The position numbers and the translations under genes were made by a program. The notes beneath the pieces are model-generated. The model was not told where the DNA came from. It saw only the letters and a list, made by a program, of their open reading frames with translations, and did no database searches. This document shows positions 1 through 25,163 of a DNA stretch of 37,241 nucleotides, in pieces (position 1 is the stretch's first letter; every line of letters starts with the position of its first letter). The stretch is taken from NCBI GenBank assembly GCA_017991615.1, contig JAGOQF010000005.1, positions 2,785-40,025 of the forward strand, read 5' to 3'. This DNA is from Candidatus Shapirobacteria bacterium (GTDB lineage Bacteria > Patescibacteriota > Microgenomatia > UBA12405).

Positions 1-127
1 AGGTAACGATCATTACAATGTCTTTACCGGCAAAGCCAAAGACAATGACAATACTGAAGCCACTGATGATGATGATGCCACTGTTGAATTTACTGATGTC
101 GCTCCTACCATTGAAGTTACTAAGACT
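1..127 (+). repeat. Copy 1 of a 342-bp-spaced direct repeat
   Basis: These 127 bases are identical to 343-469, so the period is 342 bp (114 codons, in frame). The copy ends where the two sequences diverge after ACTAAGACT. The left limit is the window edge, so the repeat may extend further upstream. It encodes the end of one DUF11-like module (GNDHYNVFTGKAKDNDN, then the Asp-rich string) and the start of the next (TIEVTKT). Confidence 0.95.
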
Positions 128-3100: not shown

Positions 3101-3895
3101 CCTACTGAATCAGTTTTTTCTCAATTTGGAGGGGATATTGTCGTTACTGCCGGTGGCAATTCCGACCAATGCAATTTAGCTTCGGTAATTTCTACCCCCG
3201 GTACCTATCAATTCCAAACCAAAGCTTACGCCGGCGCTGATGTTGCTGAGAGTAATACTGTTTTCTTTGATTATCAAAATTCTACTCCCGGCACTCCAGT
3301 AGAATATTCTAAGTCAGTCTTAGATAATCACTGCGACTATATTATTAAGTTTAGAACCGCTAATGATGAAGGTAGAACCGCCAAAGTTGAGATTTATCGT
3401 TCCACCAATCCTGCCTTTGCCGCTGACAACCAATCTCTAGTTCATTCTATCAATGTCGGCTCCGATCAATATCGGGAAGTCAACAATAGTGTCCCAGATT
3501 GTTCCAAAACTTATTATTATGCCATTCGTGCTTTTGATATTTATGGCAATGGTTCTGGTGTTACCGGCGATACTGTAGTTAAAACCGTCGTTTCCGGTGA
3601 TACTACAGTTATCAATACTACCACCACTTCTTCTTCAACTGACACTACTGGCGCTATCAGGGTCAGTGATTCAAATATTCCTCAAGAGGAAGATTTAAAC
3701 AAAAAAGATGATTCTGAACAGACCGAGACTGTTAGTCCTGATGATTCCACTGGTCAAGTTTTGGGTGTTGGCAGTCAGTCAATCAAAAGTTATTTTGCTG
3801 ATCATAAAGTTTTGACCGCAATTATCATTATCGCTTGCCTTGCCCTGATAATTTATGTCATCAAAACTGTCTTCAACAAGTCCAAAAAATCCTAA
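2..3895 (+). CDS. Giant repetitive surface protein with internal LPATG, fused to a second signal-peptide surface protein (5' partial)
   Basis: This frame is open from the left edge, so the gene starts outside the window; about 1297 residues are visible. It begins with two DUF11-like repeats carrying Asp-rich DDDDAT strings. Five SpaA/prealbumin-like modules follow (about nt 773-2270), each ending in a C-x-x-x-N type strand; the fifth looks SdrB-like, with a calcium-loop-like DVNGNGQMDSDEE. Another DUF11 domain (about 2279-2650) comes next. A sortase signal LPATG lies at 2807-2821, followed by a membrane helix and SRH. With no stop, the frame runs on from a Met codon at 2897 into a typical signal peptide, a beta-rich Fn3-like ectodomain with paired cysteines, a Thr/Ser-rich linker and a C-terminal membrane helix with a KSKKS tail. 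A sortase gene overlaps the 3' end. It is probably an adhesin or wall protein. Module names are by eye and the repeats have no assigned ligand. Confidence 0.85.
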   Translation, partial: GNDHYNVFTGKAKDNDNTEATDDDDATVEFTDVAPTIEVTKTPSVTEVPETGANVTFTFVVKNTSTKESVTITSLTDSIYGTLNGDDDCKVGTVLAAGSSCEFSITKWIEGDASGNDHYNVFTGKAKDNDNTEATDDDDATVEFTDVAPTIEVTKTASTLILPVPGGNVTFTVVVTNKSKEAVTLTSLTDDIYGDLNGQGNCATGGTINPNGGTYTCSFSGSVTGDPGFYKDIVTAIATDNEGSTDTKTDDAVVELKGGKIIIEKQTLPDGYTTQSFEFDPSWSDVNFNLTDGQSKDSGWLAPGKYSVSEIVPTGWDLTNISCGNDTDSTVDITNKTANINVSANETVRCVFTNTKRGTVVIEKNAINDSDQSFRFTNNFGNNNPIEFSLTDDTTTGLPNFEAEVLPGQYIVTEDEYESWTLTEIKCVDPTKNSTTSLENRQASIDVAPGETVTCTFTNRQKPTLTVVKKVINDNGGTKTVDDFGITFSGGQLTFDKGVEDNKTTTYTSEKLTLDKGTYTLSEKDINGYTEGTWDCGTSNENKLTTTIKLNYNQNLICTITNDDQPGTLIVKKVVNNINGGDLTADDFSFSVNDGTAIPFEADGENSLTIDAGIYTVTETPVDGYQPSYNNCSNITLANGGTATCTITNDAIFGQISVIKFNDVNGNGQMDSDEETLPNWQINLTSQDSKITNDQGSAVFNKLIPQTYYLSETLQPGWTQTNIYCDDKTPSDISNQNNYQIELGSSQSLQCHIGNRLLTPELDIAKTNNVGSSVLSPGDSVTYTIKLEVSKNDISNLKVTDLLSNGFKYRPGSYKVIKNGIEDITSQIAEPQYHSPGLWNLGSFVKGDKLDLIYIADINSNQQSGVYKDIAWAVGNNTYNQDETVLASALPEGYLDTNFVGTQVPINKAVSDSVSAEVEKVQTIEGQVLGVSTDTLPATGAATIWLLISSLFGLTGLALIFSRHTMFKNLFFSLILTAFAFGFTASPLQAADPTLFIRLQDPKTHVNTTNLDLKFVTLDISARPITVKCFKKGPTESVFSQFGGDIVVTAGGNSDQCNLASVISTPGTYQFQTKAYAGADVAESNTVFFDYQNSTPGTPVEYSKSVLDNHCDYIIKFRTANDEGRTAKVEIYRSTNPAFAADNQSLVHSINVGSDQYREVNNSVPDCSKTYYYAIRAFDIYGNGSGVTGDTVVKTVVSGDTTVINTTTTSSSTDTTGAIRVSDSNIPQEEDLNKKDDSEQTETVSPDDSTGQVLGVGSQSIKSYFADHKVLTAIIIIACLALIIYVIKTVFNKSKKS
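343..469 (+). repeat. Copy 2 of the 342-bp-spaced direct repeat
   Basis: This copy is identical over 127 bases to the left edge of the window. After it the sequence departs from the repeat, and the following DUF11-like module (PVPGGNVTFTVVVTN) is only similar in protein sequence. It therefore marks the right end of the nearly identical part of the array. Confidence 0.95.
2807..2971 (+). other. Junction: LPATG sorting signal, membrane helix, then a complete signal peptide in the same frame
   Basis: LPATG is encoded at 2807-2821. A hydrophobic helix (AATIWLLISSLFGLTG and on) and SRH follow, which is how a sortase substrate normally ends. No stop follows. A Met codon at 2897 starts MFKNLF, a hydrophobic core and an AXA-like site (SPLQA, then ADP) ending at 2971. 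I see no Shine-Dalgarno sequence and no -10 hexamer at the usual 5-7 nt distance before 2897, so a separate promoter there is not supported. Confidence 0.8.
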
Positions 3896-4466
3896 TCAAT
3901 CAAAGAAATCTCTTATTTTAGGATTTGTTCTCATTTTTATCGCCGTTGTTTTTCTTTTTAAAACCTATTATCCGGTTGCTAAAGCTGAGATTAGCTATCA
4001 ATTTCAATCACCATCTCTCCAATCAGATGATCTTACTCCTGTTGATCCTGAGTTTTCTCTTCTCATTCCCAAAATCAAAGCCAATTCAAAAGTCATCAAA
4101 AATGTTGATGCCACCAATCCTAAAATCTATCAATCAGCTCTTAGTCGAGGAGTTGCCCACGCTTCCGGCTCAGCTACTCCCGATCAACCCGGTAATGTCT
4201 TTATTTTTGCCCACTCCGCCACTAATTGGTATCAAGCCAGCGACTACAACGCCGTTTTTTATCTCCTCAATAAACTGACAGTCGGGGACAGCCTCACTCT
4301 TTACTATCAAAACCAACCTTACACCTACTCCGTTACCGACAAAAAAATTGTCTCTCCTGATCAAATCGACTATATGAAATCATCTTCTCAACGTCAACTT
4401 ACCTTGATGACCTGTTGGCCTCCCGGCACCACTCTCAATCGACTTATCATTGTTGCTACTCCCTAA
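3855..4466 (+). CDS. Sortase (class D/E-like transpeptidase)
   Basis: This is a membrane-anchored cysteine transpeptidase that cleaves LPXTG-like signals and joins surface proteins to the envelope. The 203-residue protein has a Lys-rich N-terminus, one membrane helix (about residues 19-36) and a sortase beta-barrel domain. The catalytic residues are visible: His120 in FIFAHSA, Cys187 in LMTCWPPGT and Arg196 in LNRLIIVA. The TCxPxGT...R arrangement fits class D/E-type housekeeping or pilin sortases, but class assignment by eye is weak. The ATG at 3855 overlaps the upstream surface gene by 41 bp, indicating co-transcription. Likely substrates in this window are the LPATG protein just upstream and the IPKTG protein at 15948-17213. 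An export-compatible N-terminus supports the chosen start. Confidence 0.93.
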   Translation: MSSKLSSTSPKNPNQSKKSLILGFVLIFIAVVFLFKTYYPVAKAEISYQFQSPSLQSDDLTPVDPEFSLLIPKIKANSKVIKNVDATNPKIYQSALSRGVAHASGSATPDQPGNVFIFAHSATNWYQASDYNAVFYLLNKLTVGDSLTLYYQNQPYTYSVTDKKIVSPDQIDYMKSSSQRQLTLMTCWPPGTTLNRLIIVATP

Positions 4467-12804: not shown

Positions 12805-14418
12805 ATGAAATTTTTCAGCCATCTTTTTCATCTGGGTCAAAAAAAGCAACAATCTATCTTATCAGCCTCTTTGGTTTTAGGTATTACTTTTGCTATCTCC
12901 GCTGTTCTCGGTTTTCTTCGAAGCCGATTTTTATACGCCGAATTTTTCAAGTGTTGTGCTGATCAATTAGATGTTTATAACGCCGCTTTCAGACTCCCTG
13001 ATCTTATTTTTAAGCTTCTTGTTACCGGTGCCCTCTCTGCTTCTTTTATTCCTGTTTTTTCCAGTTATCTTCACAAAGATAAAGATAAAGCTTATCAAAT
13101 CGCTTCTAGTGTTATCAATATTTTGGCCGTAATTTTTATTATTGCTTCTATTGTTGTTTTGATTTTTACCCGTCCTCTGACTCAACTTATTGCCGCTGGT
13201 TTTAGCCCTGTTCAACTTGATCTTATGGTCAACCTAACTAGAATTTTGCTAATTGCTCAGGTTTTTTTCCTCGTTAGTAATTTTCTTACTGCCATCCTTC
13301 AAGTCAATCAAATTTTTATCATTCCCGCCCTTTCCCCTATTATCTATAACCTTTGTATTATTATTTCCATTTTTATTCTTGCCCCCACATTTGGTATTTA
13401 TGGAGTGGTTTATGGAGCTGTTATCGGCGCTTTTTTTCATCTTGTCATTCAAATTCCTGCTGTTAAAAACAATGGTTTTAAATATTCTTTCACTATCAAT
13501 CGTCATCTTAGTGGTGTCAAAGAGGTTTTTCGTCTTATGGTTCCCCGTAGTTTATCACTAGGTCTAGGGGAAATTGAAAATACTGTCACTTTATTTTTTG
13601 CCAGCTCTTTACCAATTGGTTCAATTTCATTGCTCAATCTTGCCCTCCAATTAATGTATCTTCCTAGTCGTATTTTTGGTACTACTGTTGGTCAAGCGTC
13701 TTTGCCTATTTTATCCAAAAATATTGCCGCCAACGAACTTGACAATTTTCGTCGGACTGTCAGTAATATTCTGCTTCAAAGCCTTTTTATTGCTTTACCT
13801 GTCGCTGTTTTAGTTCTTGTCGAAAGGGTACCTATTATCAGATTACTTTTTGGTTCTCAAAATTTTCCTTGGACAGCCACCTTGACTACTGCTAGAATTT
13901 TAGCCCTTCTTACCCCAGCTATCGTCTGTCAAGCAATCATCCAAATACTCATCCGTTCATTCTATGCCCTTCATAACACCAAAATTCCTTTCAAAGTTTC
14001 CTTTGTCTCTCTTCTAACCAACATTACCGTTAGTTTTATTTTGATTAACTTTACCAATTTAGGTGTTCTTGGTCTGGCAATCAGCTCCACTATTACCAAT
14101 ATCATTCAAATGTTAGGTTTATTTTATTTCTTTATCAAAATAGTTGATGGTTTCGATTGGGTTCAGACTCTTCGCCGACTTAACAAAATGCTTTTAGCCT
14201 CTCTACTAATGGGTTTATCCACTTGGTTAAGTTTAAAGTTTCTTGACCTCTTTGTTCTTGACACCACTCGTACCATTGCTCTCGGTCTGGTTTTTTCTGC
14301 TTCTAGCTTGATTGGAATTATTATTTATATTTTTGTTTCCGATTTACTTAACATCAACGAGATTAATGATTACAAAAAATACTTTAACAAATTCAAACGT
14401 TTTGTTTTCAGAAAATAG
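12805..14418 (+). CDS. murJ: Lipid II flippase MurJ
   Basis: MurJ moves lipid II across the membrane for peptidoglycan synthesis. The 537-residue protein has about 13-14 hydrophobic segments. It opens with the family pattern: a first helix, then FLRSRFLYAEFF, an acidic ADQLDVYNAAFRLPDLIF and LLVTGALSASFIPVFSSYL, which match the MviN/MurJ signature around helices 1-2. Later GLGEIENTVTLFFAS, GQASLPILSK and RSFYALHNTKIPF also fit. An earlier ORF start in another frame is a shadow. It heads a run of envelope genes in the same direction, starting with PilN/PilO-like proteins 18 nt downstream. Confidence 0.95.
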   Translation: MKFFSHLFHLGQKKQQSILSASLVLGITFAISAVLGFLRSRFLYAEFFKCCADQLDVYNAAFRLPDLIFKLLVTGALSASFIPVFSSYLHKDKDKAYQIASSVINILAVIFIIASIVVLIFTRPLTQLIAAGFSPVQLDLMVNLTRILLIAQVFFLVSNFLTAILQVNQIFIIPALSPIIYNLCIIISIFILAPTFGIYGVVYGAVIGAFFHLVIQIPAVKNNGFKYSFTINRHLSGVKEVFRLMVPRSLSLGLGEIENTVTLFFASSLPIGSISLLNLALQLMYLPSRIFGTTVGQASLPILSKNIAANELDNFRRTVSNILLQSLFIALPVAVLVLVERVPIIRLLFGSQNFPWTATLTTARILALLTPAIVCQAIIQILIRSFYALHNTKIPFKVSFVSLLTNITVSFILINFTNLGVLGLAISSTITNIIQMLGLFYFFIKIVDGFDWVQTLRRLNKMLLASLLMGLSTWLSLKFLDLFVLDTTRTIALGLVFSASSLIGIIIYIFVSDLLNINEINDYKKYFNKFKRFVFRK

Positions 14419-14435: not shown

Positions 14436-15011
14436 ATGGCTATCAAAAAAGAGTTATCTCTTTTGCCGGATTCAGAAAACCCAAACTCATTTAGCGCCCG
14501 AGCGATTAAGTGGTTAAGTACTGTTGGTCGCTGGATTATTGTCTTAACTGAGTTAATTGTAGTTACCGCTTTTATCTCCAGGTTTTGGCTTGACCGTAAA
14601 AATTCCGATCTTTCTGAAATTATCCGTCAACAACAAGCTATTATTGAAAGTACTCAAACTTTCGAAAAGGAATTTAATTCTTTTCAACAAAGATTGAAAT
14701 TTATCAAGGATTTTTATGCTATCTCTCCCAGCTACGATGATAAAATGTCGATTTTAGTCAAAAGTACCCCACCCGATCTTGTCTACAAAAATCTAGCTCT
14801 CAAACCCGATATTAATGATAGTCACAAAGTAAGTGCCAATGCTAATCTTATCGCTTTTAAAGAAGATTCTATTGTCAGTTTTATTACCAATCTCATGGTA
14901 AATGATCAAATTGAATCAGTTACTATCAATCAGATTGAAAAAAAATCTCAGGAAAATAATTATTCTGTGACTTTATCAGTTGTTTTTAAAAATTCAGTCT
15001 CTAAAACATGA
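14436..15011 (+). CDS. PilN-like type IV pilus inner-membrane assembly protein
   Basis: The 191-residue bitopic protein has a short cytoplasmic N-terminus that starts with the PilN-like KKELSLLPDSENP (compare 'INLLP'). One membrane helix follows at about residues 31-50, then a coiled-coil-prone stretch (SDLSEIIRQQQAIIESTQTF) and a periplasmic-type alpha/beta domain ending SVTLSVVFKNS. This is the usual PilN/GspL-C-like layout. It overlaps the next, PilO-like gene by ATGA, which supports an interacting pair. PilM, PilQ and ATPases are not in the window, so involvement in a pilus or related secretion apparatus is inferred. Sequence motifs are weak, so the family call rests mainly on architecture and pairing. 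Confidence 0.7.
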   Translation: MAIKKELSLLPDSENPNSFSARAIKWLSTVGRWIIVLTELIVVTAFISRFWLDRKNSDLSEIIRQQQAIIESTQTFEKEFNSFQQRLKFIKDFYAISPSYDDKMSILVKSTPPDLVYKNLALKPDINDSHKVSANANLIAFKEDSIVSFITNLMVNDQIESVTINQIEKKSQENNYSVTLSVVFKNSVSKT

Positions 15012-15634
15012 TCGAAAAAAAGACTTGGTTTCAAATTCAACCTCTTTATCAACACGTTCGTCGTCAAGCTGAAAACAAAAAAACTGTCAAGTATGTCGAA
15101 ATCGGCACTACTTTCTCTCTGATTGCTGTCTTTCTTTTTGCTGCCATTGCTCCCACCGCCTCAGCCATTTCCAAACTAATCGGTGAAATCAAGGCTAAAG
15201 AACTGACTGTCAAAGAGATGAAAACTAAAATTAATAATTTAGTTCAAGCTCAGGAAAACTACGCTGCCTTTCAAGAAAAATATCAAGTACTTGAATCAAG
15301 TTACCCTTCGTCTCAAGAGTTTTACCAATCAGCTTCCAATTTTTCCGCCATTACTCGGGAATCATCTTCGATCATCAGAAGTATGAATTTTAATCTTAGT
15401 GAACATGAGACTACTTTTGATTCCAAAAATCCGTCTTATATCGTCAGTATGCTTATCGATGGCAATTATTATTCCATCCTTCAAACTATCAAAAAAATCA
15501 CCGAAAGTCGACGATTGATGGATATTAATTCTATCCAGGTTAAAACTCCTGAGAATAATCAACCCAATACTGTTGTTTTAAATATTTCCACCGGTTTATT
15601 CTATTTACCTGTTTATTCAAATGAAAAAAACTAA
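15008..15634 (+). CDS. PilO-like type IV pilus inner-membrane assembly protein
   Basis: The 208-residue protein has a cytoplasmic N-terminus of about 30 residues, one membrane helix (about 31-53), a coiled coil (IGEIKAKELTVKEMKTKINN) and a ferredoxin-like C-terminal domain with a SYIVSMLIDGNYYSILQTI segment typical of PilO. It is coupled to the PilN-like gene upstream by a 4-nt overlap, and its 3' end overlaps the next gene by 14 nt. PilO pairs with PilN in the alignment complex of type IV pilus machines. The family is assigned from size, topology and gene order more than from invariant residues. Confidence 0.7.
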   Translation: MIEKKTWFQIQPLYQHVRRQAENKKTVKYVEIGTTFSLIAVFLFAAIAPTASAISKLIGEIKAKELTVKEMKTKINNLVQAQENYAAFQEKYQVLESSYPSSQEFYQSASNFSAITRESSSIIRSMNFNLSEHETTFDSKNPSYIVSMLIDGNYYSILQTIKKITESRRLMDINSIQVKTPENNQPNTVVLNISTGLFYLPVYSNEKN

Positions 15635-15947: not shown

Positions 15948-17213
15948 ATGAAAAAGGAAAAAAGAATTCCTACTATTCTCGGGTTAATTTTGATGTTAAG
16001 CACAGTTCTTATCAGTTCTCGTTTAGTTGATCGAACTACTACCACCTCTACTCAGGCTAGCGGCGAGTGTGATCCTATTAACCCTCAAATAACCAATCTG
16101 ACTCATCAAACAGCCGTTATTTCTTTTACCACTTCCTCAGCTTGTTTGGTTGATGTTAAGATTGCTAATCAAACTATTTCCGATCCCAAAGGTAAAAGCA
16201 CTGTTCATTATTTTGATATTACTGATCTAGAAGCATCAAAAGCTTATATTTTTTCCATTATTAGTGGTGGTAAAGAATTTAAATCTGACAGTTACAATTT
16301 TAAAACTGCCCAAAAACCTAATCAAGATATTCCGACCTCAAACCTTGCCTGGGGTCGAGTCCTCAATCCAGATCAATCTCCAGCCACTGATGCTATTGTC
16401 TATCTAAATATTCCTGGTGCCTCGGCTCTATCTGCTTCTGTTACTTCATCAGGTAATTGGAGCATTGCTCTAGCTACTAGTTTTAATGAATCTTTAAATG
16501 ATTGGTTTATTTCTCCTAGTGATATTGAGGAAAATATCACTGTTATTGCTACTGGTTATCCCGCCACTCAAATTATTAATACCACTTCTCACAACAATCC
16601 CGTTCCTGATATTATTCTGGGTCAAGATAGATTTTCTATCCCTGAATCTATATCAACTAACCAAATAGAAGATATTATTCTTCCTGAATATACCCTCGAT
16701 TCATCTGTACCTCTTAACATTACTAACCCTACCAATAATGAACAAATTTCCACCCAAAAACCTGATTTTTTCGGTACTGGTCAACCTAACTCGACTCTAA
16801 AAATAAAAATTGAATCGCCAATTATCATTAATGGTCAAACCACTGTTAGTGCCGATGGTAGTTGGAACTGGTCCCCACCTCAAAATCTAACTCCTGGTGA
16901 ACACACTATCACTGTCACCGACAGTAACAATAAAAGTGTTACTCGAAAATTTACCGTTCTCGCTGCCGAGGCTCAAACTTCATTTACCGCTTCTCCTTCT
17001 GCTACCACAGTTATCCCAACTCTAACCCCCACAATTGCTCCCAAGCCTACCGCCACTCCTACCTATTTACTCACTCCTACCTCTATTCCGGTTATTAAAC
17101 CCAGTACCTCTTCAGGTATCCCAAAAACCGGGGTTCTATTACCAAACTTCACTTTAATTTCTCTAGCCATCGTTTCAATTATTCTTGCCACCGTTTATTA
17201 CAAAAAATCATAA
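15948..17213 (+). CDS. Surface protein with Ig/Fn3-like domains and an IPKTG sorting signal
   Basis: The 421-residue exported protein has a basic N-terminus and signal helix (about residues 8-25). An Fn3-like domain (DPINPQITNLTHQTAVISF, then DITDLEASKAYIFSI) follows. The middle domain (ASVTSSGNWSIAL) resembles carboxypeptidase-regulatory domains, and the Big/Ig-like domain (STLKIKIESP, SADGSWNWSPP, GEHTITVTDSNN) follows it. After a Thr/Pro-rich stalk (about 343-388) comes the anchor: IPKTG at residues 391-395, a membrane helix and the KKS tail. IPKTG fits an LPXTG-like sortase signal, making this a probable substrate of the sortase encoded at 3855-4466. It is the last gene of the pilus-like run, so it might be a minor pilus or associated surface component; that is inferred. 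Confidence 0.85.
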   Translation: MKKEKRIPTILGLILMLSTVLISSRLVDRTTTTSTQASGECDPINPQITNLTHQTAVISFTTSSACLVDVKIANQTISDPKGKSTVHYFDITDLEASKAYIFSIISGGKEFKSDSYNFKTAQKPNQDIPTSNLAWGRVLNPDQSPATDAIVYLNIPGASALSASVTSSGNWSIALATSFNESLNDWFISPSDIEENITVIATGYPATQIINTTSHNNPVPDIILGQDRFSIPESISTNQIEDIILPEYTLDSSVPLNITNPTNNEQISTQKPDFFGTGQPNSTLKIKIESPIIINGQTTVSADGSWNWSPPQNLTPGEHTITVTDSNNKSVTRKFTVLAAEAQTSFTASPSATTVIPTLTPTIAPKPTATPTYLLTPTSIPVIKPSTSSGIPKTGVLLPNFTLISLAIVSIILATVYYKKS

Positions 17214-17230: not shown

Positions 17231-18154
17231 ATGGTTAAAAAAAATAAATTAACCGTAGTTTTCGAAGCTCTCCGACCCATCCAATGGATTAAAAATCTAG
17301 GTATTTTTGCCGCCATCATTCTTAATGGTCAATTGTTTAACCAGACAGCTTTCACCAAAAGTTTGTTAGCTTTTATAGTTTTTTGTCTTTTATCATCCTC
17401 TTCATACCTTATTAATGATATTGTTGATATTGATAAAGATAAACTTCACCCCGTCAAGAAAAACCGACCTATTGCCAGGGGTGATTTAGCTACCAGCAAT
17501 GCCATTTTTATTGCTTTTATTTTGTTGTTTTCTGGATTATTTATTTCTCTTTTTATCAACTCTGGCTTTTTTTGGCTATCTTTAATTTTTATCCTGTTTC
17601 AATATACCTATTCACTACTTCTCAAAAAAAAGGCAGTGGTTGATATTATTGGTATTTCCTTTTTCTTTATTATTCGTACCTATGCTGGAGAAGTCGCTAC
17701 CGGTTATCATCTTCCAGTTTGGATTATGTTGGCAGTTGTCTTCTTGTCTTTATTTTTGGCCAGTGGCAAAAGACGCAGTGAAATCAATAATACCGGTACT
17801 AAAACCAGAAGTGCTCTTGCTGGTTATGATAAAAACCTACTTGATTTTTACACTACTATGTTCGCTGTCAGCACTCTTATTTCTTATGCTTTGTTTACTT
17901 TCACCGAAGAACCGGTTATTTTTGATGGACTTATTCATCATTTTCTTCTAGAAAATTTTCCCAACGCCCTAGGTCGTAAATGGTATATGATCACCATTTT
18001 GCCAGTTATTTTTGGGATTATGCGCTATGGACAGGTTATTTTTGAAATGCAAGAAGGGGAGCGTCCCGAAAAGATTATTGCCACAGACATACCCTTATTG
18101 ATGATTATTTTTATGTGGGGTTTCATGATGATTGCTATTATTTATGTCATCTAA
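17231..18154 (+). CDS. UbiA-family prenyltransferase, decaprenyl-phosphate phosphoribosyltransferase-like
   Basis: This subfamily transfers phosphoribose from PRPP to polyprenyl phosphate, the first step to lipid-linked pentose donors (Rv3806c type in mycobacteria). The 307-residue polytopic protein starts LRPIQWIKNLGIFA, a strong subfamily signature. It carries the first Asp-rich motif with Asn62, Asp63, Asp66 and Asp70, followed by HP (73-74) and RPIARG (79-84). The second motif region is YTYSLLLKKKAVVDIIG and then FFFIIRTYAG. These points favour the phosphoribosyltransferase branch over quinone or heme O synthases. The next gene overlaps by 11 nt, tying it to a GT39-type glycosyltransferase. 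The polyprenyl length and product are not determinable here. Confidence 0.85.
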   Translation: MVKKNKLTVVFEALRPIQWIKNLGIFAAIILNGQLFNQTAFTKSLLAFIVFCLLSSSSYLINDIVDIDKDKLHPVKKNRPIARGDLATSNAIFIAFILLFSGLFISLFINSGFFWLSLIFILFQYTYSLLLKKKAVVDIIGISFFFIIRTYAGEVATGYHLPVWIMLAVVFLSLFLASGKRRSEINNTGTKTRSALAGYDKNLLDFYTTMFAVSTLISYALFTFTEEPVIFDGLIHHFLLENFPNALGRKWYMITILPVIFGIMRYGQVIFEMQEGERPEKIIATDIPLLMIIFMWGFMMIAIIYVI

Positions 18155-19679
18155 AACCAAGTCTGTCATTTATCTTCTAGTTATTGTTTTAGCTGTTTTT
18201 ACCCGATTTTGGAACCTAAATTGGAGTCAAGGCTATCCTTTTCATCCCGACGAAAATAATATGGTTAATTCGATTCTCCAGCTGACCACCACCGATCTTA
18301 ATCCTCGTTTTTTTGCCTATGGTCAATTTCCTTTATATTTAACTTACTTCACTTCTCCACATCAAACTTTCACTTCTATCACTCTTACTCTTCGGTTCTG
18401 GTCGGCAGTTTTTTCTTGCCTCTCACTAGTCTTTTTTTATTTTATTAGCAAAAAAATTTTTGTCTCAGATTTTTTTTCGCTTATTTTTGTTTTGCTTTTA
18501 ATCTTTACTCCCGGCTTAATTCAGTCAGCTCACTTCGGTACTACTGAATCAATTTTAATTTTTGTGTTTTCAGTTAATCTTTTTTTGGCTTTTAAATTTC
18601 TTGACCACCCCCGACCTAAATTCATTTTTCTAGCTAGTTTAGTCTCTGGCCTTGGTCTGGCCACTAAAATTTCCGCCCTAATTTTAACTTTACCTATTTT
18701 TATTTCTTTTGCTTTTTTATTTTTCAAAAAAACTAATTTTTGGTTTTTGGTCAGATATTTTCTCTTTTTTGTTTCTTTAACTATTGTAGTCAGTTTGTTA
18801 TTATCCCCTTTTAACTTAATTAATTATGCCGATTTTATATCGGCTATCAAATATGAAATTGGTGTTGCCAATAGCAGTTTGCCGGTATTTTATACTCGTC
18901 AGTTTATTAACACTCTGCCTTATTTGTTTCATTTTCGTCATATTTTCCCCTACACCAATGGTATTTTTATTTTTTTCTTTGGAATAATCGGTACTTTTAT
19001 TTATATTTATCGTTCCTTTGTTTATCAAAAACTAAATCCTTATTTTTTTATCACCTTTTTTTCTGCCCTGATTTATTTTGTTTATCACGGTCAAATTTTT
19101 GTTAAATGGACTCGTTTTGTAGCTCCAATTTTCTTTATTTTTCCTTTTATGTCGGTTTATTTTTTTTCTACTATCAGATCAAAAATCATTTCTATTTTTC
19201 TTTTTATTTTGTCAATTCTCCCCGGAATTTACTTTATGAAAACTTATTTTACAGTTGACAATCGTATTTTGGCCAGTCATTGGATAAATCAAAATATTCC
19301 CCAACAATCGGTTATTTTATCCGAATCTGGCAATGTTACCTCGCTTCCTTTAGACACCTCGTCAAAATTTAATCTAACCGATTTTGATTTCTATAATCTG
19401 GATTCTCAGAATCATGCCAACCTTGATCATTTAATTGCCGACAGTCAATATATCTTTGTCCCTTCCCGTCGGGTTTTTAAAAACCAAACCAATTCTCTTT
19501 TTCCCGAATCTCAAAAATACTATCAATCCCTTTTCTCAGGACAATTGGGATTCAATTTAATCAAAACTTTTAGTCTCAACAATAGTTTATTTCTCAACCC
19601 CGAAACTGCCGAAGAAACCTGGTCAGTTTTTGATAATCCGGTTATTAGGATTTACCAAAAAAATGAAATCAAAAATTAA
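18144..19679 (+). CDS. GT39/PMT-type membrane glycosyltransferase (copy 1)
   Basis: This is a GT-C fold enzyme that would use a polyprenyl-phosphate sugar donor on the outer face of the membrane. The 511-residue protein has many membrane helices, and the first extracytoplasmic loop has WSQGYPFHPDENN with the catalytic-type Asp36/Glu37 pair of the GT39/ArnT-like group. A non-membrane C-terminal region contains YYQSLFSGQLGF and an AEETWSVFDNP motif, shared with the next gene. The ATG at 18144 is used; a TTG at 18132 is also in frame but less likely. It overlaps the UbiA-family gene by 11 nt and the next GT39 gene by 17 nt. The acceptor is unknown. Confidence 0.87.
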   Translation: MSSKTKSVIYLLVIVLAVFTRFWNLNWSQGYPFHPDENNMVNSILQLTTTDLNPRFFAYGQFPLYLTYFTSPHQTFTSITLTLRFWSAVFSCLSLVFFYFISKKIFVSDFFSLIFVLLLIFTPGLIQSAHFGTTESILIFVFSVNLFLAFKFLDHPRPKFIFLASLVSGLGLATKISALILTLPIFISFAFLFFKKTNFWFLVRYFLFFVSLTIVVSLLLSPFNLINYADFISAIKYEIGVANSSLPVFYTRQFINTLPYLFHFRHIFPYTNGIFIFFFGIIGTFIYIYRSFVYQKLNPYFFITFFSALIYFVYHGQIFVKWTRFVAPIFFIFPFMSVYFFSTIRSKIISIFLFILSILPGIYFMKTYFTVDNRILASHWINQNIPQQSVILSESGNVTSLPLDTSSKFNLTDFDFYNLDSQNHANLDHLIADSQYIFVPSRRVFKNQTNSLFPESQKYYQSLFSGQLGFNLIKTFSLNNSLFLNPETAEETWSVFDNPVIRIYQKNEIKN

Positions 19680-21324
19680 TTTAAGTTTACTTTTTATTCT
19701 TATTTTTGGTTTTTTTGTTCGTCTTGTCGGTCTCAATTGGGATCAAGGTCAACATCTTCATCCTGACGAAAGGTTTTTAACCATGGTTCTGACCGAAATT
19801 AGTCTTCCTGCTAAATTTTCTGACTATCTAAACCCTCAAACTTCTCCTCTTAATCCTTATAATCATGGTTTTGATTTTTTTGTCTATGGTTCTTTTCCAC
19901 TTAATCTAGTTAAAGTTATTGGTCAAATCATCGGACAAACTGACTACCAGCAAATTTATTTAGTTGGTCGAATAATTACTGTTTGTTTAGACACTCTGGT
20001 TATTTTATTGATTTTTCTTATTACTCAAAAAATTTTTAATCGTCGCTTTGGTCTGGCTGCCGCCTTTTTATATTCCATTTATGTTCTTCCTATTCAGCTG
20101 TCTCATTTTTTTACTACCGATCCTTTTTTAAATTTCTTTCTCATTCTTACCTTTTATTTTTTACTGACCAAAATATCTCCTCATCGATGCCTTGGGTTGA
20201 CTCTGGCAGCCCTAAGTTATAGCTTGGCTCTAACCAGCAAAATTTCTGCCGTCTATTTTGTTCCAGTAATTCTGTTATTTTTTATTTTCTATTTTAAAAC
20301 CAATTTTAAACATTTATTAACCTATGGTTTATTTTTTTCATTTTTAGTTTTAATTTTCACCAGATTCTTTCAACCCCAGTTGTTTATCGATAATAATTTT
20401 CTAAATTGGAGTCCAAATCCTCAATTTATTGCCAACCTTAACAGTTTAAAGAGTTATGATCGTAACCCTATTTATCCACCTGCCATCCAATGGCTTAAAA
20501 CTATCCCTATAATTTTCCCTTTGCAAAATATTATTTTTTGGGGATTGGGTTTGCCTTTAGGTTTTATTTTTATTTTATCTCTGTTCCATTACATTTTTTT
20601 TCTTATCAAAAACCCTTCTCGATCAAATTTTAATTTATTTGTAATTATTTTTTGGATTTTATTTTTACTCATTGTTCAAGGACTCCAACCAGTAACTACT
20701 GTTAGATATTTTCTGCCTATTTATCCGTTTATTTCCATTATCTCCGGCGCTTTTATTTATAAACTTATTTCCAATAAATTCCACCTTTTCAGTCGACCTG
20801 TTATCAAAATTATTTTTGTTGCCAGTTTATTAATCTATCCTTTTTTGTTTATTTCTATTTATTTTAAAGACCATTCCCGGGTTGCCGCTTCCAAATGGAT
20901 TTATCAACACCTGCCTTTAGGGTCAACTATTGCCGTTGAATATTGGGATGATGCCCTGCCTTTGTCTATTGGCGACTCACTTTCGTCAGATTATCAATAT
21001 CAACTTCTTCATGTTGCTGATTACCCCGATACCGAAACCAAGTTTAATCATCTTTTAGATCAACTTACCGCTTCCGATTATCTTATCCTGTCTTCAAACC
21101 GTTTTTATCAACCCATCCCCAAAAATTCCGATGTTTTCCCTTATACTTCAGCTTATTATCAATCCTTGTTTAATGGTGATTTAGGTTTTTCTAAAATTGC
21201 TGAATTCACTTCTTACCCTTGTTTTTTCTCTTTTTGCCTTGTTGATGATTCTGCTGAAGAAGCTTTCACCGTTTATGATCACCCCAAGGTTATTATTTTC
21301 AAAAAAACCGTCCCTAGTTTCTGA
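19663..21324 (+). CDS. GT39/PMT-type membrane glycosyltransferase (copy 2)
   Basis: This is a paralogue of the preceding gene. It has the same start (LVGLNWDQGQHLHPDERF, with Asp35/Glu36), many membrane helices and a matching C-terminal end with YYQSLFNGDLGF and AEEAFTVYDHP. The ATG at 19663 (MKSKINLSLL) is chosen; an in-frame start at 19630 would add 11 residues lying wholly inside the upstream gene. The 553-residue protein overlaps copy 1 by 17 nt and converges with, overlapping by 11 nt, the GT4 gene. Tandem duplication followed by divergence is likely. The two may add sugars at different positions of a lipid-linked or surface glycan; that is inferred. Confidence 0.87.
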   Translation: MKSKINLSLLFILIFGFFVRLVGLNWDQGQHLHPDERFLTMVLTEISLPAKFSDYLNPQTSPLNPYNHGFDFFVYGSFPLNLVKVIGQIIGQTDYQQIYLVGRIITVCLDTLVILLIFLITQKIFNRRFGLAAAFLYSIYVLPIQLSHFFTTDPFLNFFLILTFYFLLTKISPHRCLGLTLAALSYSLALTSKISAVYFVPVILLFFIFYFKTNFKHLLTYGLFFSFLVLIFTRFFQPQLFIDNNFLNWSPNPQFIANLNSLKSYDRNPIYPPAIQWLKTIPIIFPLQNIIFWGLGLPLGFIFILSLFHYIFFLIKNPSRSNFNLFVIIFWILFLLIVQGLQPVTTVRYFLPIYPFISIISGAFIYKLISNKFHLFSRPVIKIIFVASLLIYPFLFISIYFKDHSRVAASKWIYQHLPLGSTIAVEYWDDALPLSIGDSLSSDYQYQLLHVADYPDTETKFNHLLDQLTASDYLILSSNRFYQPIPKNSDVFPYTSAYYQSLFNGDLGFSKIAEFTSYPCFFSFCLVDDSAEEAFTVYDHPKVIIFKKTVPSF

Positions 21325-22456
21325 ATATTTTTTCATATTCCCTTATTGATTTTTGGTAATCAAATTTATTTAAATTATTCCCCGCTCTTTTTTGATAAAA
21401 CTTTTTTCCCTTTTTTAACACCAATTCAATTTTGTCAGCCAAATCCGTTACATTTTTGTTTTCAAACAATTCTCCCATTTTAGTTATTTTTATCGGTATT
21501 CTCATCCCTGGCAAGTCAGTCGCCACTCCCGGAGTCCCACATTTCATCGCTTCTATTTGCACCCAACCAAACGACTCCAAAATATCATCGCTTGGTAACA
21601 CTAATAAATCAATTTTCTTGTAAAAATTACTCAACTCTGACCTTTCAATATTACCCAAAAAAACAAATTTTTCTTTCAAAATTTTCCGATATTTATTTTG
21701 CAAATACTCATAATAGTTTTCTCCAATGACCTTGATTGGGCCCGCCATTAAAATTACATAATTATTTTTCCCCAAATTTTTATCCAATAATTTTGTTGAT
21801 TGAATCAAGAGTTCGATTCCTTTTTGTTTGGCAATCCTGCCACAAAAACCAATGACATATTTCTTGCCATAAATTGCTTTATTTATCTTCTTTGTCAATG
21901 TCAAGTTAATTTTGTTTTCTAATTTTATCGGTGGATAAATTTGTTTTACCTTTCTCAAAAAAAGTTTTAAATAGTAAGAATTCCGGGCATAATCATTGGT
22001 ATAAGAAATTATTTTGTCTGCTAACAATCCCGAACCTACCTGACAAACAAACACCCCTCCATCAATAATTTTGTTTTTTATCCCTTTCCAAAAACTCAAA
22101 TCTGTATGATGACTCAAAATTAATTTTTTCCCAAATATTTTTGCCACCAATCCCAGCCACACTGATTCTGGTTGAGGTAAATGACAATTTACTGCCTGAC
22201 ATCTTCTTATTTCTTTGATTGATGAACCTATCAGTCCTGGATAAATTGGCCCTTTACCAATCTTAAACCAAATTTTCAATCTCTTAATTTTGACACCATT
22301 TATGACTTCCTCTTTTTTTGTCTTTGGATCATGCCAACTTGTCAGTATGGTTACCTCGTGACCCAATTTGACCATTTCCTCGGCCAATATTTTAATATAG
22401 ATGGTAATTCCCGATACATTTGGTAAATAATAAGTTGTGGTTATTAAAATCTTCAC
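21314..22456 (-). CDS. Glycosyltransferase family 4
   Basis: This is a cytosolic GT-B fold, nucleotide-sugar-dependent glycosyltransferase. The 380-residue protein starts MKILITTTYYLPNVSGITIY, the N-terminal GT4 pattern, with a LSHHTDL acceptor-side segment. The C-terminal domain shows FCGRIAKQKGIELLI (Arg207, Lys211/212) and the E-x7-E donor-binding motif with Glu294 and Glu302 (ESFGWVQIEAMKCGTPGVA). It resembles lipid-linked mannosyl- or glucosyltransferases (PimB-like group), but the sugar is not assigned. The start is a GTG at 22456, which lies exactly 6 nt after a minus-strand TATAAT and therefore has no room for a ribosome binding site. It is divergent from the PAP2 gene. Confidence 0.9.
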   Translation of the reverse strand: MKILITTTYYLPNVSGITIYIKILAEEMVKLGHEVTILTSWHDPKTKKEEVINGVKIKRLKIWFKIGKGPIYPGLIGSSIKEIRRCQAVNCHLPQPESVWLGLVAKIFGKKLILSHHTDLSFWKGIKNKIIDGGVFVCQVGSGLLADKIISYTNDYARNSYYLKLFLRKVKQIYPPIKLENKINLTLTKKINKAIYGKKYVIGFCGRIAKQKGIELLIQSTKLLDKNLGKNNYVILMAGPIKVIGENYYEYLQNKYRKILKEKFVFLGNIERSELSNFYKKIDLLVLPSDDILESFGWVQIEAMKCGTPGVATDLPGMRIPIKITKMGELFENKNVTDLADKIELVLKKGKKFYQKRAGNNLNKFDYQKSIREYEKIFRN

Positions 22457-22462
22457 TCTCCA

Positions 22463-22491
22463 ATTATATCAACCGTATTTACGGTTATAAT
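22463..22491. promoter_or_regulatory. Divergent, mutually overlapping promoters with a central palindrome
   Basis: On the minus strand, TATAAT (22468-22463) ends 6 nt before the GTG of the GT4 gene. On the plus strand, TATAAT (22486-22491) ends 6 nt before the ATG of the PAP2 gene. Exactly 17 nt separate the two boxes, so each occupies the -35 position of the other. Between them lies an inverted repeat with AACCGTA (22471-22477), TT, and TACGGTT (22480-22486), a candidate operator. Confidence 0.6.
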
Positions 22492-22497
22492 AAGACA

Positions 22498-23073
22498 ATG
22501 AATTTAACTAAATCCATCTTGTTTTGGCAGCCTCGAATTGATTATTTGCCCTGGTTCGAGTCGAACTCTTTCCGTAAAAAAATTTTAGTCGTTTTAAATT
22601 ACATTATTTGGTTGTTTTTTTTCTATATTTCCTTCATTTTGATCAAATCCGATATTAATATTTTTGGTCAGATTCTCATGGCCACCATTATTGCCGAGAT
22701 TATCGAAAGATATCTAAAAAGTAAAATTAATTGGCGCCGTCCTTTGTTTAATCGAAACAATCAAACTCCTTTTGGTTTAGTCGACCGTTGGTATAAAACT
22801 GGTTCTTTTCCTTCTGGTCACACTATCAAGGCTGTTTATTTTTTATTGTTTATTATCCAATATCAAATTTTTTCTCCCGTCATTTTTTTATTGATAGTTA
22901 TTCCTTTGTTAACCTTTCGAGTCGTTATTGGTTTTCATTATCCGATTGATATTTTAGGAGGTCTTATAGTTGGTGTCTTTATTTGGTTTTTGGTTCGAGA
23001 AATTACTTTTCCGTTGTTTTTTAATCAATTAGTTCAATCAGTTTTTGATTTTATTTTTTATTTAAGTTTATGA
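22498..23073 (+). CDS. PAP2-superfamily membrane phosphatase
   Basis: This is a membrane lipid-phosphate phosphatase. The 191-residue protein has about 5 hydrophobic segments and the three PAP2 motifs: K-x6-RP (Lys74, Arg81, Pro82), PSGH (105-108) and R-x5-H-x3-D (Arg141, His147, Asp151; the residue before Arg is Phe rather than the usual Ser). The ATG at 22498 (MNLTKSILFWQPRIDY) is preferred over an in-frame start at 22420, which would reach into the divergent GT4 gene, and a perfect -10 box lies 6 nt upstream of 22498. It overlaps the DUF2298 gene by ATGA. Candidate substrates are polyprenyl pyrophosphate or a polyprenyl-phosphoribose 5-phosphate made by the UbiA-type enzyme. Confidence 0.92.
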   Translation: MNLTKSILFWQPRIDYLPWFESNSFRKKILVVLNYIIWLFFFYISFILIKSDINIFGQILMATIIAEIIERYLKSKINWRRPLFNRNNQTPFGLVDRWYKTGSFPSGHTIKAVYFLLFIIQYQIFSPVIFLLIVIPLLTFRVVIGFHYPIDILGGLIVGVFIWFLVREITFPLFFNQLVQSVFDFIFYLSL

Positions 23074-25163
23074 TTAATGATCTTTATTCTATCCTAATTT
23101 GGTGGTCGACCATTTTTTTTCTGGGTTTATTAAGCCTGCCCATAATTTTCTCTATTTTCTCCAAATTTTGGGACAAAGGTTATATTTTTGCCAAAACACT
23201 TTCTTTGATAATTATTACCTATTTGTCATTGGTTTTGGGTATTTTCAAACTTCTTCCTTTCAATCTTGTCGGTTTATCGGTCATCATTTTATGTCTTCTT
23301 GTCGTCGATTTTATTTTTTTAAAACAAAAAAATAATTTCCACAAATTTATTTCCACTATCAAATCTCATTTTCGTATTTTTATAACTCAAGAATTAATAT
23401 TTTTGATTATTTTAATAATCTGGTCGTTTGTTCGCGGTTTTTCTCCTGCTATCGAAGGCTTGGAAAAATATATGGACTGGGGGTTTGTCAATTCCGCTCT
23501 CAGAAGTCGGTTTCTTCCGCCAATTGATATGTGGTTTGCTGGTGAGGTTATTAATTATTACTATTTTGGTCATCTTATTTTTGCTTTGATTACCAAAATT
23601 TCCCAACTTAGTTCCGCAATTACCTACAACCTATCTATTGCCACAGTTTGTTCACTTACCTTTGTTAGTGCTTTTTCCTTAGCTTCCAATTTAGTCTATC
23701 TTTTGTCACCAAAATCCGGCCTCAAAAAAATTATTATCGCTGGTCTTGTTTCTGCCCTTTTACTTACCTTTGGTGGTAATTTTCACCCCGTTTTTAAAAT
23801 CGCCAAAAATAATTATCTCCAAAATGATCACCATTTTGTTTTTACTAAAGAAGCTGTTAATCAATCTATTTCAGCCTATTGGTATCCCGATGCCACCCGT
23901 TTTATTGGTCACGATCCTGATATTCAAGACAAAACCATTCATGAATTCCCTCTCTATAGCTTCGTCGTTTCCGATCTTCACGGTCATATGAACGACATTT
24001 TTATCATCCTCTTTTTTATGGCCTTTTTATCAATTTCCCTTATAAAACCCCAACCTCTTTTTGACTGGAAATTTATTTCTTTTTCCGGTTTTATTCTCTC
24101 TGTTTCTTATATGACCAATGCCTGGGATTTTGCTATTTATGGACTTTTATTGGCTGTTTTTACTTCAATTTACAATTATCGCCAGACCGGTTTTGACAGT
24201 TTAGTCAAAACCATTAGCAACGGTTTATTAGTCATTGCTTTTTGGTATCTTTTTACTTTGCCATTTTCACTTAAATTTATTCCTATGATGGAGGGGATTC
24301 GGCTTGCCGACAGTCACTCGCCTTTTTATCAACTTTTTGTCCTTTATGGTGGTTTTTGGTTGATTAGTTTGCCTTTTTTAATTCATTTTTTAATCTTGTT
24401 TTTTAAACATAAATCACCCAAAATCACCCCTGTTGATATTTTTGTTTTTTCTCTGGTTCTTACTGCCACTGTCTTGATTACTATTCCCGAGCTTATTTAT
24501 ATCAAAGATATTTATGTCTATGAGCACCGTCGCGCCAACACCATGTTCAAATTAGTTTATCAGGCATTTATTATGTACTCGCTTTCCTCCGGTTATATTC
24601 TTGTCCGCCTGCCGCAAATCATCAAATCCAAATTTTGGATCAATTTTTATAAAGTAACTTTCTGCCTCGTCTTTGTTATTCATCTGATTTATCCTTATTT
24701 TGCCATCAAATCATACTATGGTAGTCCTAAAAATTATAAAGGTCTTGACGGTCTTAAATATCTTCAAAATCTCTACCCTGACAATTATCAAGCTGTTTTG
24801 TGGATTAACCAAAATATTTCTGGTCAACCGGTTATGTTGGAAGCGGTCGGGGATAGTTATACCACCTTCAATCACGTTTCTTCCGCTACTGGTTTACCCA
24901 CAGTTCAGGGCTGGGTGGTTCACGAATGGCTTTGGCGGGGTGGCTACGATGCTCCCGCCGCCCGTCAGCAAGATGTCGAAACCATTTATTCTTCTACCGA
25001 TATTAATGAAGTCAAAAATTTACTTTCAAAATATCACGTCGAATATATTTTTGTCGGTAGCAAAGAATATGAAAAATACCCTCAACTTGATTCCGACAAA
25101 TTTTTATCTTTGGGTGCCAAAATTGTTTTTCAGTCTGGCAAAACCACCATTTACCAACTATAG
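23070..25163 (+). CDS. DUF2298 ('YYY' domain) polytopic membrane protein, putative glycosyltransferase
   Basis: The 697-residue protein has many membrane helices. It carries the hallmark of the Chloroflexi/Archaea YYY family: an acidic first loop (AIEGLEKYMDWGFVNSALRS) and NYYYFGH at residues 162-168. Later family-like segments include a DLHGHMNDIFIILFFMAF stretch and RRANTMFKLVYQAFIMYS. The family's function is not firmly established; it resembles GT-C glycosyltransferases in layout. The C-terminal region ends with YIFVGSKEYEKY and an Ile/Tyr-rich strand. It is translationally coupled to PAP2 (ATGA), and its stop codon lies inside the -10 box of the next gene. Context suggests a role in surface-glycan assembly. 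Confidence 0.85.
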   Translation: MINDLYSILIWWSTIFFLGLLSLPIIFSIFSKFWDKGYIFAKTLSLIIITYLSLVLGIFKLLPFNLVGLSVIILCLLVVDFIFLKQKNNFHKFISTIKSHFRIFITQELIFLIILIIWSFVRGFSPAIEGLEKYMDWGFVNSALRSRFLPPIDMWFAGEVINYYYFGHLIFALITKISQLSSAITYNLSIATVCSLTFVSAFSLASNLVYLLSPKSGLKKIIIAGLVSALLLTFGGNFHPVFKIAKNNYLQNDHHFVFTKEAVNQSISAYWYPDATRFIGHDPDIQDKTIHEFPLYSFVVSDLHGHMNDIFIILFFMAFLSISLIKPQPLFDWKFISFSGFILSVSYMTNAWDFAIYGLLLAVFTSIYNYRQTGFDSLVKTISNGLLVIAFWYLFTLPFSLKFIPMMEGIRLADSHSPFYQLFVLYGGFWLISLPFLIHFLILFFKHKSPKITPVDIFVFSLVLTATVLITIPELIYIKDIYVYEHRRANTMFKLVYQAFIMYSLSSGYILVRLPQIIKSKFWINFYKVTFCLVFVIHLIYPYFAIKSYYGSPKNYKGLDGLKYLQNLYPDNYQAVLWINQNISGQPVMLEAVGDSYTTFNHVSSATGLPTVQGWVVHEWLWRGGYDAPAARQQDVETIYSSTDINEVKNLLSKYHVEYIFVGSKEYEKYPQLDSDKFLSLGAKIVFQSGKTTIYQL

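Follow-up and report, generated by a model that had tools for sequence, protein, structure and literature searches.

What lipid-linked sugar does a bacterium make when its genome carries a UbiA-type gene among glycosyltransferase genes, and where does that sugar go? The question is raised by a 37,241-nucleotide stretch of contig JAGOQF010000005.1 (the window) from a Candidatus Shapirobacteria genome of 677 kb (19 contigs, 95% complete). An earlier note on this DNA had picked out six genes, encoding UbiA, two GT39-type enzymes, a GT4 glycosyltransferase, a PAP2 phosphatase, and a DUF2298 protein, and had proposed that they build a pentose-containing surface glycan from phosphoribosyl pyrophosphate (PRPP). 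All six were confirmed at the same coordinates among the open reading frames of the window. By computed tests, the window UbiA is a polyprenyl-phosphate phosphoribosyltransferase, and it is conserved across nearly all of the class that holds Shapirobacteria, which we take to be Microgenomatia. It is likely that Shapirobacteria, and nearly the whole class with them, attach ribose to their surface glycans.

Identity of the UbiA protein

Window proteins were scanned with Pfam and NCBIfam models. The window UbiA scored 215.7 bits (cut-off, 207 bits) with NF008978, a curated equivalog model for decaprenyl-phosphate phosphoribosyltransferase. At E ≤ 1e-20, NF008978 matched 1 of 14 control genomes, that of Corynebacterium glutamicum; UbiA-family proteins are present in all 14. 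The nearest solved relative by sequence was structure 8j8j of Mycobacterium tuberculosis Rv3806c (E = 2e-35), and an AlphaFold model of the window UbiA (predicted local distance difference test [pLDDT] score of 76) was closest to 8j8j and 8j8k, with template modeling (TM) scores of 0.77/0.81 against 8j8j and 0.67 or less against UbiA homologues. In a phylogenetic tree, the window and class sequences were joined by short branches to phosphoribosyltransferases; Escherichia coli prenyltransferase branches, at 6 to 9 changes per site, were too long to place. Named relatives of the window UbiA, at 64 to 78% identity, were mostly Candidatus Shapirobacteria.

The substrate pocket points the same way. 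Eleven Rv3806c residues that contact PRPP, Mg, and the lipid phosphate (R22, K28, Y70, N73, D77, K87, R90, Q135, Y138, K143, and K191; PMC10994848) are all kept in the window UbiA, as R15, K21, Y59, N62, D66, K76, R79, Q124, Y127, K132, and K180, respectively. Across 86 class sequences, the pocket residues are mostly invariant and the others nearly so. Four of them (K28, Y70, K87, and K191 in Rv3806c numbering) are kept in eleven proteins of the phosphoribosyltransferase family from other records, and jointly they discriminate phosphoribosyltransferases from E. coli UbiA, MenA, and CyoE. Tyr157 of Rv3806c is Phe in the window UbiA, as it also is in some mycobacteria (PMC10994848). From its sequence, the enzyme is predicted to convert PRPP and polyprenyl phosphate to polyprenyl-phosphate-ribose-5-phosphate, and a family search showed that the genome encodes a PRPP synthetase.

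The motifs cited by the earlier note (LRPIQWIKN and NDxxDxxxD...HP...RPIARG) are present, and its assignment of UbiA as a PRPP-dependent phosphoribosyltransferase is borne out by the NF008978 score, the pocket, and the 8j8j-like model. A quinone, haem, or aromatic prenyltransferase would have this same fold and also the NDxxDxxxD motif, which is common to the whole superfamily, but we rejected this identity as very improbable: prenyltransferase models (haem O, UbiA, MqnP, EboC, and others) all scored <50 bits, whereas the DPPR synthase model scored 216 (the exception is PRK08238, at 166 bits, a model of HAD-UbiA fusions that are themselves of this phosphoribosyltransferase kind), K28, Y70, K87, and K191 do not occur jointly in the E. 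coli enzymes, and the model lies nearest to 8j8j. A candidate counterexample, Ubi-297 (PMC9235831), was set aside as an EboC-type enzyme; with the EboC model, the window UbiA reaches no more than 31.7 bits.

Gene layout of the window

The principal features, with coordinates in the window, are as follows.

17231 to 18154, forward strand: UbiA-fold polyprenyl-phosphate phosphoribosyltransferase (PF01040, 92.6 bits; NF008978, 215.7 bits)
18132/18144 to 19679, forward strand: GTa, a GT-C protein of the PMT_2/GT39 clan with an HPDEN motif (PMT_2, 28.4 bits; cut-off, 26.1 bits)
19630/19663 to 21324, forward strand: GTb, a second PMT_2/GT39-clan protein, with an HPDER motif (PMT_2, 43.1 bits)
21314 to 22456, reverse strand: GT4 glycosyltransferase (Glycos_transf_1, 108 bits)
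22420 to 23073, forward strand: PAP2 phosphatase (PAP2, 49.7 bits)
23070 to 25163, forward strand: DUF2298/chlor_Arch_YYY membrane protein, putatively GT-C-like (PF10060, 303 bits; TIGR03662, 492 bits)
12805 to 14418, forward strand: MurJ-type flippase (MurJ, 258 bits)
15948 to 17213, forward strand: Ig-domain surface protein with a C-terminal PKTG-TM-KK anchor (Big_13, 33 bits; anchor read by sequence)

The UbiA, GTa, and GTb genes overlap one another and form one unit. The UbiA/GTa overlap is 11 nucleotides, and the true GTa start is likely an internal ATG at about 18144. PAP2 (true start likely an internal ATG at about 22498) and DUF2298 overlap in a second unit, beyond the opposite-strand GT4 gene. 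A terminator scan gave results at the level of shuffled sequence, and promoter-like sites were moderately above it in this AT-rich DNA; neither was used as evidence. Repeats in the region were discarded, as they look like chance matches in AT-rich DNA.

Conservation across the class and phylum

The UbiA enzyme was found in 88 of 96 class genomes; in a sample of the phylum, 32 of 145 genomes, ten of them from the same class, passed E = 1e-20 with NF008978. Neighborhoods were compared at 86 loci from 33 families of the class. A GT-C or WecA-like gene lies directly beside UbiA in 31 of these families: a GTa- or GTb-type GT-C gene is directly downstream in 10, and a WecA-like gene is immediately upstream in 21, where the usual block is GT2, PMT, a 120-amino-acid protein, WecA, and UbiA. 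(The WecA-like gene of locus L046 scored 94 bits with TIGR02380, under that model's cut-off.) In f19, one of the two remaining families, the gene immediately after UbiA is DUF2298; the other, f10, has neither a GT-C nor a WecA gene beside it. Among relatives, 40 of 43 UbiA-GTa pairs and 34 of 35 WecA-UbiA pairs have overlapping genes. GT4 occurs near UbiA in three families.

UbiA with glycan assembly enzymes is thus a conserved core, whereas the six-gene set is not, because PAP2 is found near UbiA in two families and DUF2298 in seven. Among relatives, UbiA keeps its GT-C or WecA neighbors, and neither of the two outcomes that the earlier note named as refuting (a UbiA that falls with quinone or other aromatic prenyltransferases, or a cluster that relatives do not conserve) was seen; the linkage of PAP2 is weak and that of DUF2298 patchy. 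In a class whose genomes do not exceed about 1.5 Mb, about nine-tenths of genomes retain the enzyme, which suggests that the surface sugar is not optional.

Just upstream of WecA in 18 families is a small protein (about 110 to 150 amino acids) with no Pfam family (for example, L046:11540-11980 and L042:11522-11857). A similar-looking segment forms the N terminus of a longer WecA (476 to 502 amino acids) at loci L140 (9469-10899), L139, and L148, which points to an accessory domain.

Proposed pathway

The explanation that we favor, with some confidence, is that UbiA makes a lipid-linked ribose that is dephosphorylated, flipped, and transferred to a surface glycan or glycoprotein. A phosphatase, perhaps the window PAP2 and perhaps an unlinked enzyme, would strip the 5-phosphate; the sugar, without DprE1, would remain ribofuranose; a flippase would turn the lipid-linked sugar over; and the cotranscribed GTa (with GTb) would transfer the pentose to its acceptor outside the cell. 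Computed tests back the assignment of UbiA to its enzyme family and of GTa to the GT-C fold; we infer the dephosphorylation, flipping, acceptor, and final sugar identity.

Several points weigh against this pathway. The activity of UbiA is a prediction, and the position of Q135, which contacts ribose O3, is His in 21 of the 86 class proteins, among which K208 of Rv3806c is not conserved. PAP2 is near UbiA in only 2 of the 33 families (f1 and f2, the window's own and one other), and no flippase gene of the GtrA or SMR kind is linked to UbiA. By model comparison, GTa is closer to oligosaccharyltransferases and mannosyltransferases than to arabinosyltransferases, and a DPM1-GtrA fusion encoded in the genome could feed a different lipid-sugar donor to the GT39 proteins.

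Phosphatase and flippase

The window PAP2 protein has intact motifs (KSKINWRRP, PSGH, and RVVIGFHYPID), and the earlier note had assigned it removal of the 5-phosphate. Given its linkage to UbiA in f1 and f2 only, that role is a guess, and a connection to ribose-5-phosphate, drawn from gene location, is possible. Chances appear evenly balanced that PAP2 is instead a general lipid phosphatase, acting on undecaprenyl pyrophosphate or phosphatidylglycerophosphate and unrelated to ribose-5-phosphate. Its nearest solved relative is PgpB (E = 2e-4), with YodM also among the closest; its weak NCBIfam matches are to undecaprenyl-diphosphatases; and it pairs with DUF2298, not with UbiA. However, the genome also encodes BacA/UppP and a second PAP2 protein (L121:709-2241 on contig 5; 510 amino acids, with a long C-terminal domain), which may already cover the general role and leave the window PAP2 available for a different one. 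A phosphoribosyltransferase gene of Marivivens likewise has a divergent PAP2 gene beside it. The mycobacterial counterpart, Rv3807c, is only a putative phosphatase, and knock-down showed that it is not essential (PMC5964476). The window UbiA has no HAD domain.

MurJ is the sole flippase linked to UbiA. A single GtrA domain turned up in the genome, joined to a DPM1-type GT2 domain in one protein (L123:725-2041 on contig 11; 438 amino acids).

GT-C proteins and their donor

As the earlier note proposed, the gene after UbiA encodes a GT-C enzyme. The GTa model (pLDDT of 75) has a GT-C fold that matches STT3, PglB, ArnT, and Pmt4, and more weakly AftB and EmbA/B; this fold gives no information on the donor, and we regard GTa as a candidate pentosyltransferase. 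Sequence comparison of GTa, GTb, and DUF2298 with solved structures gave nothing useful, the sole GTa match (E = 0.2) being a chance one. GTb overlaps GTa, and the order GTa-GTb is the same in the window's own family and several others. The GT-C and putative GT-C proteins of the window match only PMT_2/PMT and DUF2298 models, with no Emb/Aft-type arabinosyltransferase in the cluster. DUF2298, which the earlier note had tied to the same pathway, is often beside UvrD in the class instead, and its presence near UbiA in 7 of 33 families makes that link patchy.

It is conceivable, if rather unlikely, that UbiA makes polyprenyl-phosphate-ribose while GTa, GTb, and DUF2298 use another lipid-sugar, such as a polyprenyl-phosphate-hexose, and an unlinked enzyme transfers the pentose. 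The GT2-GtrA fusion is of the dolichyl-phosphate-sugar synthase kind, the closest folds to GTa are STT3, PglB, ArnT, and Pmt4, with AftB and EmbA/B weaker, and in the 21 families where WecA is the direct neighbor the GT-C genes belong to other subgroups. Against this, the UbiA and GTa genes overlap at 40 of 43 loci and GTa/GTb genes lie directly downstream of UbiA in ten families, a coupling that would be expected of a donor maker and a donor user.

Ribose or an epimer

The earlier note had allowed that the sugar could stay ribose. Model NF053785 found no DprE1 in the window's genome or in any of the 96 class genomes (best score, 53 bits, far under true members); DprE2 was not searched genome-wide. 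As a positive control, the same model gave 339 to 352 bits in genomes G224 and G211, which belong to a different family of the phylum. A negative result with PF04030 (ALO) was discarded as unreliable, since PF04030 misses the clear DprE1 of locus L136. Because DprE1 is missing from genome and class, the donor is predicted to remain polyprenyl-phosphate-ribose; a sugar that probably stays ribose is the simplest reading.

An unlinked enzyme, an SDR or some other oxidoreductase, might still epimerize the sugar to arabinofuranose or xylofuranose, leaving the final glycan without ribose. In Citrobacter, an SDR epimerase alone turns lipid-ribose into lipid-xylose (PMC11127046), an epimerase gene lies beside UbiA at locus L142, and a flavoprotein of the amine-oxidase type is found near UbiA in five families. 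We consider this unlikely, as none of the 96 class genomes has DprE1 and a Pfam scan of the cluster proteins of the window shows no epimerase or SDR.

At L142 (6143-8879), consecutive genes encode UbiA, an NAD-dependent epimerase, a HAD-IIIA phosphatase of small size, and an SMR protein resembling ArnE; this set is a candidate for a compact pentose-lipid module. The flavin amine-oxidase-type protein is encoded one or two genes away from UbiA at L070, L081, L069, L072, and L074. In another patescibacterial family, L136 (6300-9842) places DprE1 (340 bits) and a DprE2-like SDR next to a HAD-UbiA fusion, with a PMT_2-like gene nearby, which suggests that a polyprenyl-phosphate-arabinose branch exists in the phylum.

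Upstream genes and candidate acceptors

The Ig-domain protein gene is directly upstream of UbiA in the window and across its own family, where the block order is MurJ-pilN/O-Ig-UbiA. In the window, segment 14436-17213 upstream of UbiA includes a PilO-type gene (15008-15634) with a PilN-like neighbor, the latter assigned from position and by eye; PilO-type, PilN-like, and Ig-domain genes keep their place upstream of UbiA in several families. It is possible that these surface or pilus proteins are acceptors of the sugar. Elsewhere in the window (2-4466), a 1,297-amino-acid reading frame that has SpaA-like domains and an LPATG within it is followed by a sortase, together predicted to be a system of sortase-anchored surface proteins.

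Comparison with known systems

Candidate-phyla bacteria are hard to grow, and to our knowledge their surface chemistry is almost wholly uncharted; a literature search returned no description of this phosphoribosyltransferase in them. The pathway proposed here yields a testable prediction, that surface glycans contain ribofuranose, not arabinose. The class might, as a tentative suggestion, have as its core surface polymer a WecA-initiated glycan with ribofuranose, which the conserved phosphoribosyltransferase would make without epimerases. If so, this polymer would parallel mycobacterial arabinan in the candidate phyla, with ribose as the final sugar. The earlier note read the enzyme and the sugar well, and it overread PAP2 and DUF2298, whose linkage is weak or patchy.

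Rv3806c (8j8j/8j8k) and the window UbiA share an enzyme family, a fold, and a pocket for PRPP and lipid phosphate. As in the mycobacterial decaprenyl-phosphate-arabinose pathway, PAP2 and GT-C genes lie near UbiA in the window; unlike that pathway, the genome and class lack DprE1, the GT-C proteins are PMT_2/DUF2298 rather than Emb/Aft, and PAP2 is linked in two families only.

In the three-component pentofuranose systems of Citrobacter youngae O1/O2 (Kelly et al. 2024, PMC11127046), ribose is added when the epimerase is absent, and in the prototype the backbone or acceptor glycan is WecA-initiated. The window resembles these systems in having PPPRS and GT-C in one unit (overlapping genes, GT-C fold), and the WecA-UbiA coupling of 21 class families suggests a WecA-initiated acceptor, as in the prototype. 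It differs in that the window UbiA has neither a fused HAD phosphatase nor a linked MATE/SMR flippase. By analogy, the cluster would work like a three-component system with a putative phosphatase and flippase.

Modules read from named plasmid records vary in the same parts: Marivivens has a phosphoribosyltransferase, a divergent PAP2, and an EamA transporter; Lactococcus has a phosphoribosyltransferase, a HAD phosphatase, and GtrA; and Cereibacter has a HAD-sized UbiA, GtrA, an FAD oxidoreductase, and an SDR, with Rhizobium similar. Clusters of HAD-UbiA, a DprE1-like FAD oxidoreductase, and a DprE2-like SDR (Rhizobium and Cereibacter plasmids; G224) share the phosphoribosyltransferase domain and pocket with the window, and in both, membrane protein or GT-C genes adjoin the phosphoribosyltransferase; these clusters have two further parts, a phosphatase fused to UbiA and a pair of enzymes that epimerize the sugar toward arabinose, whereas the window has neither. 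As far as its citation in PMC11127046 goes, pilin arabinosylation of the Pseudomonas aeruginosa PA7 type has PPPRS in common with the window, where UbiA is near a PilO-type gene; on the same basis, it differs in that the window's genome lacks DprE1 and pilin is not indicated as the acceptor here.

The chemistry itself is already known from mycobacterial DPPR synthase and from the systems of Kelly et al. (2024). What is new is that the enzyme is nearly universal in a candidate-phyla class, where most families couple it to WecA and a linked epimerase or phosphatase is mostly absent. PRPP-dependent lipid-sugar synthesis is thereby extended from mycobacteria and variable O-antigen cassettes to a conserved trait encoded by a class-wide core gene.

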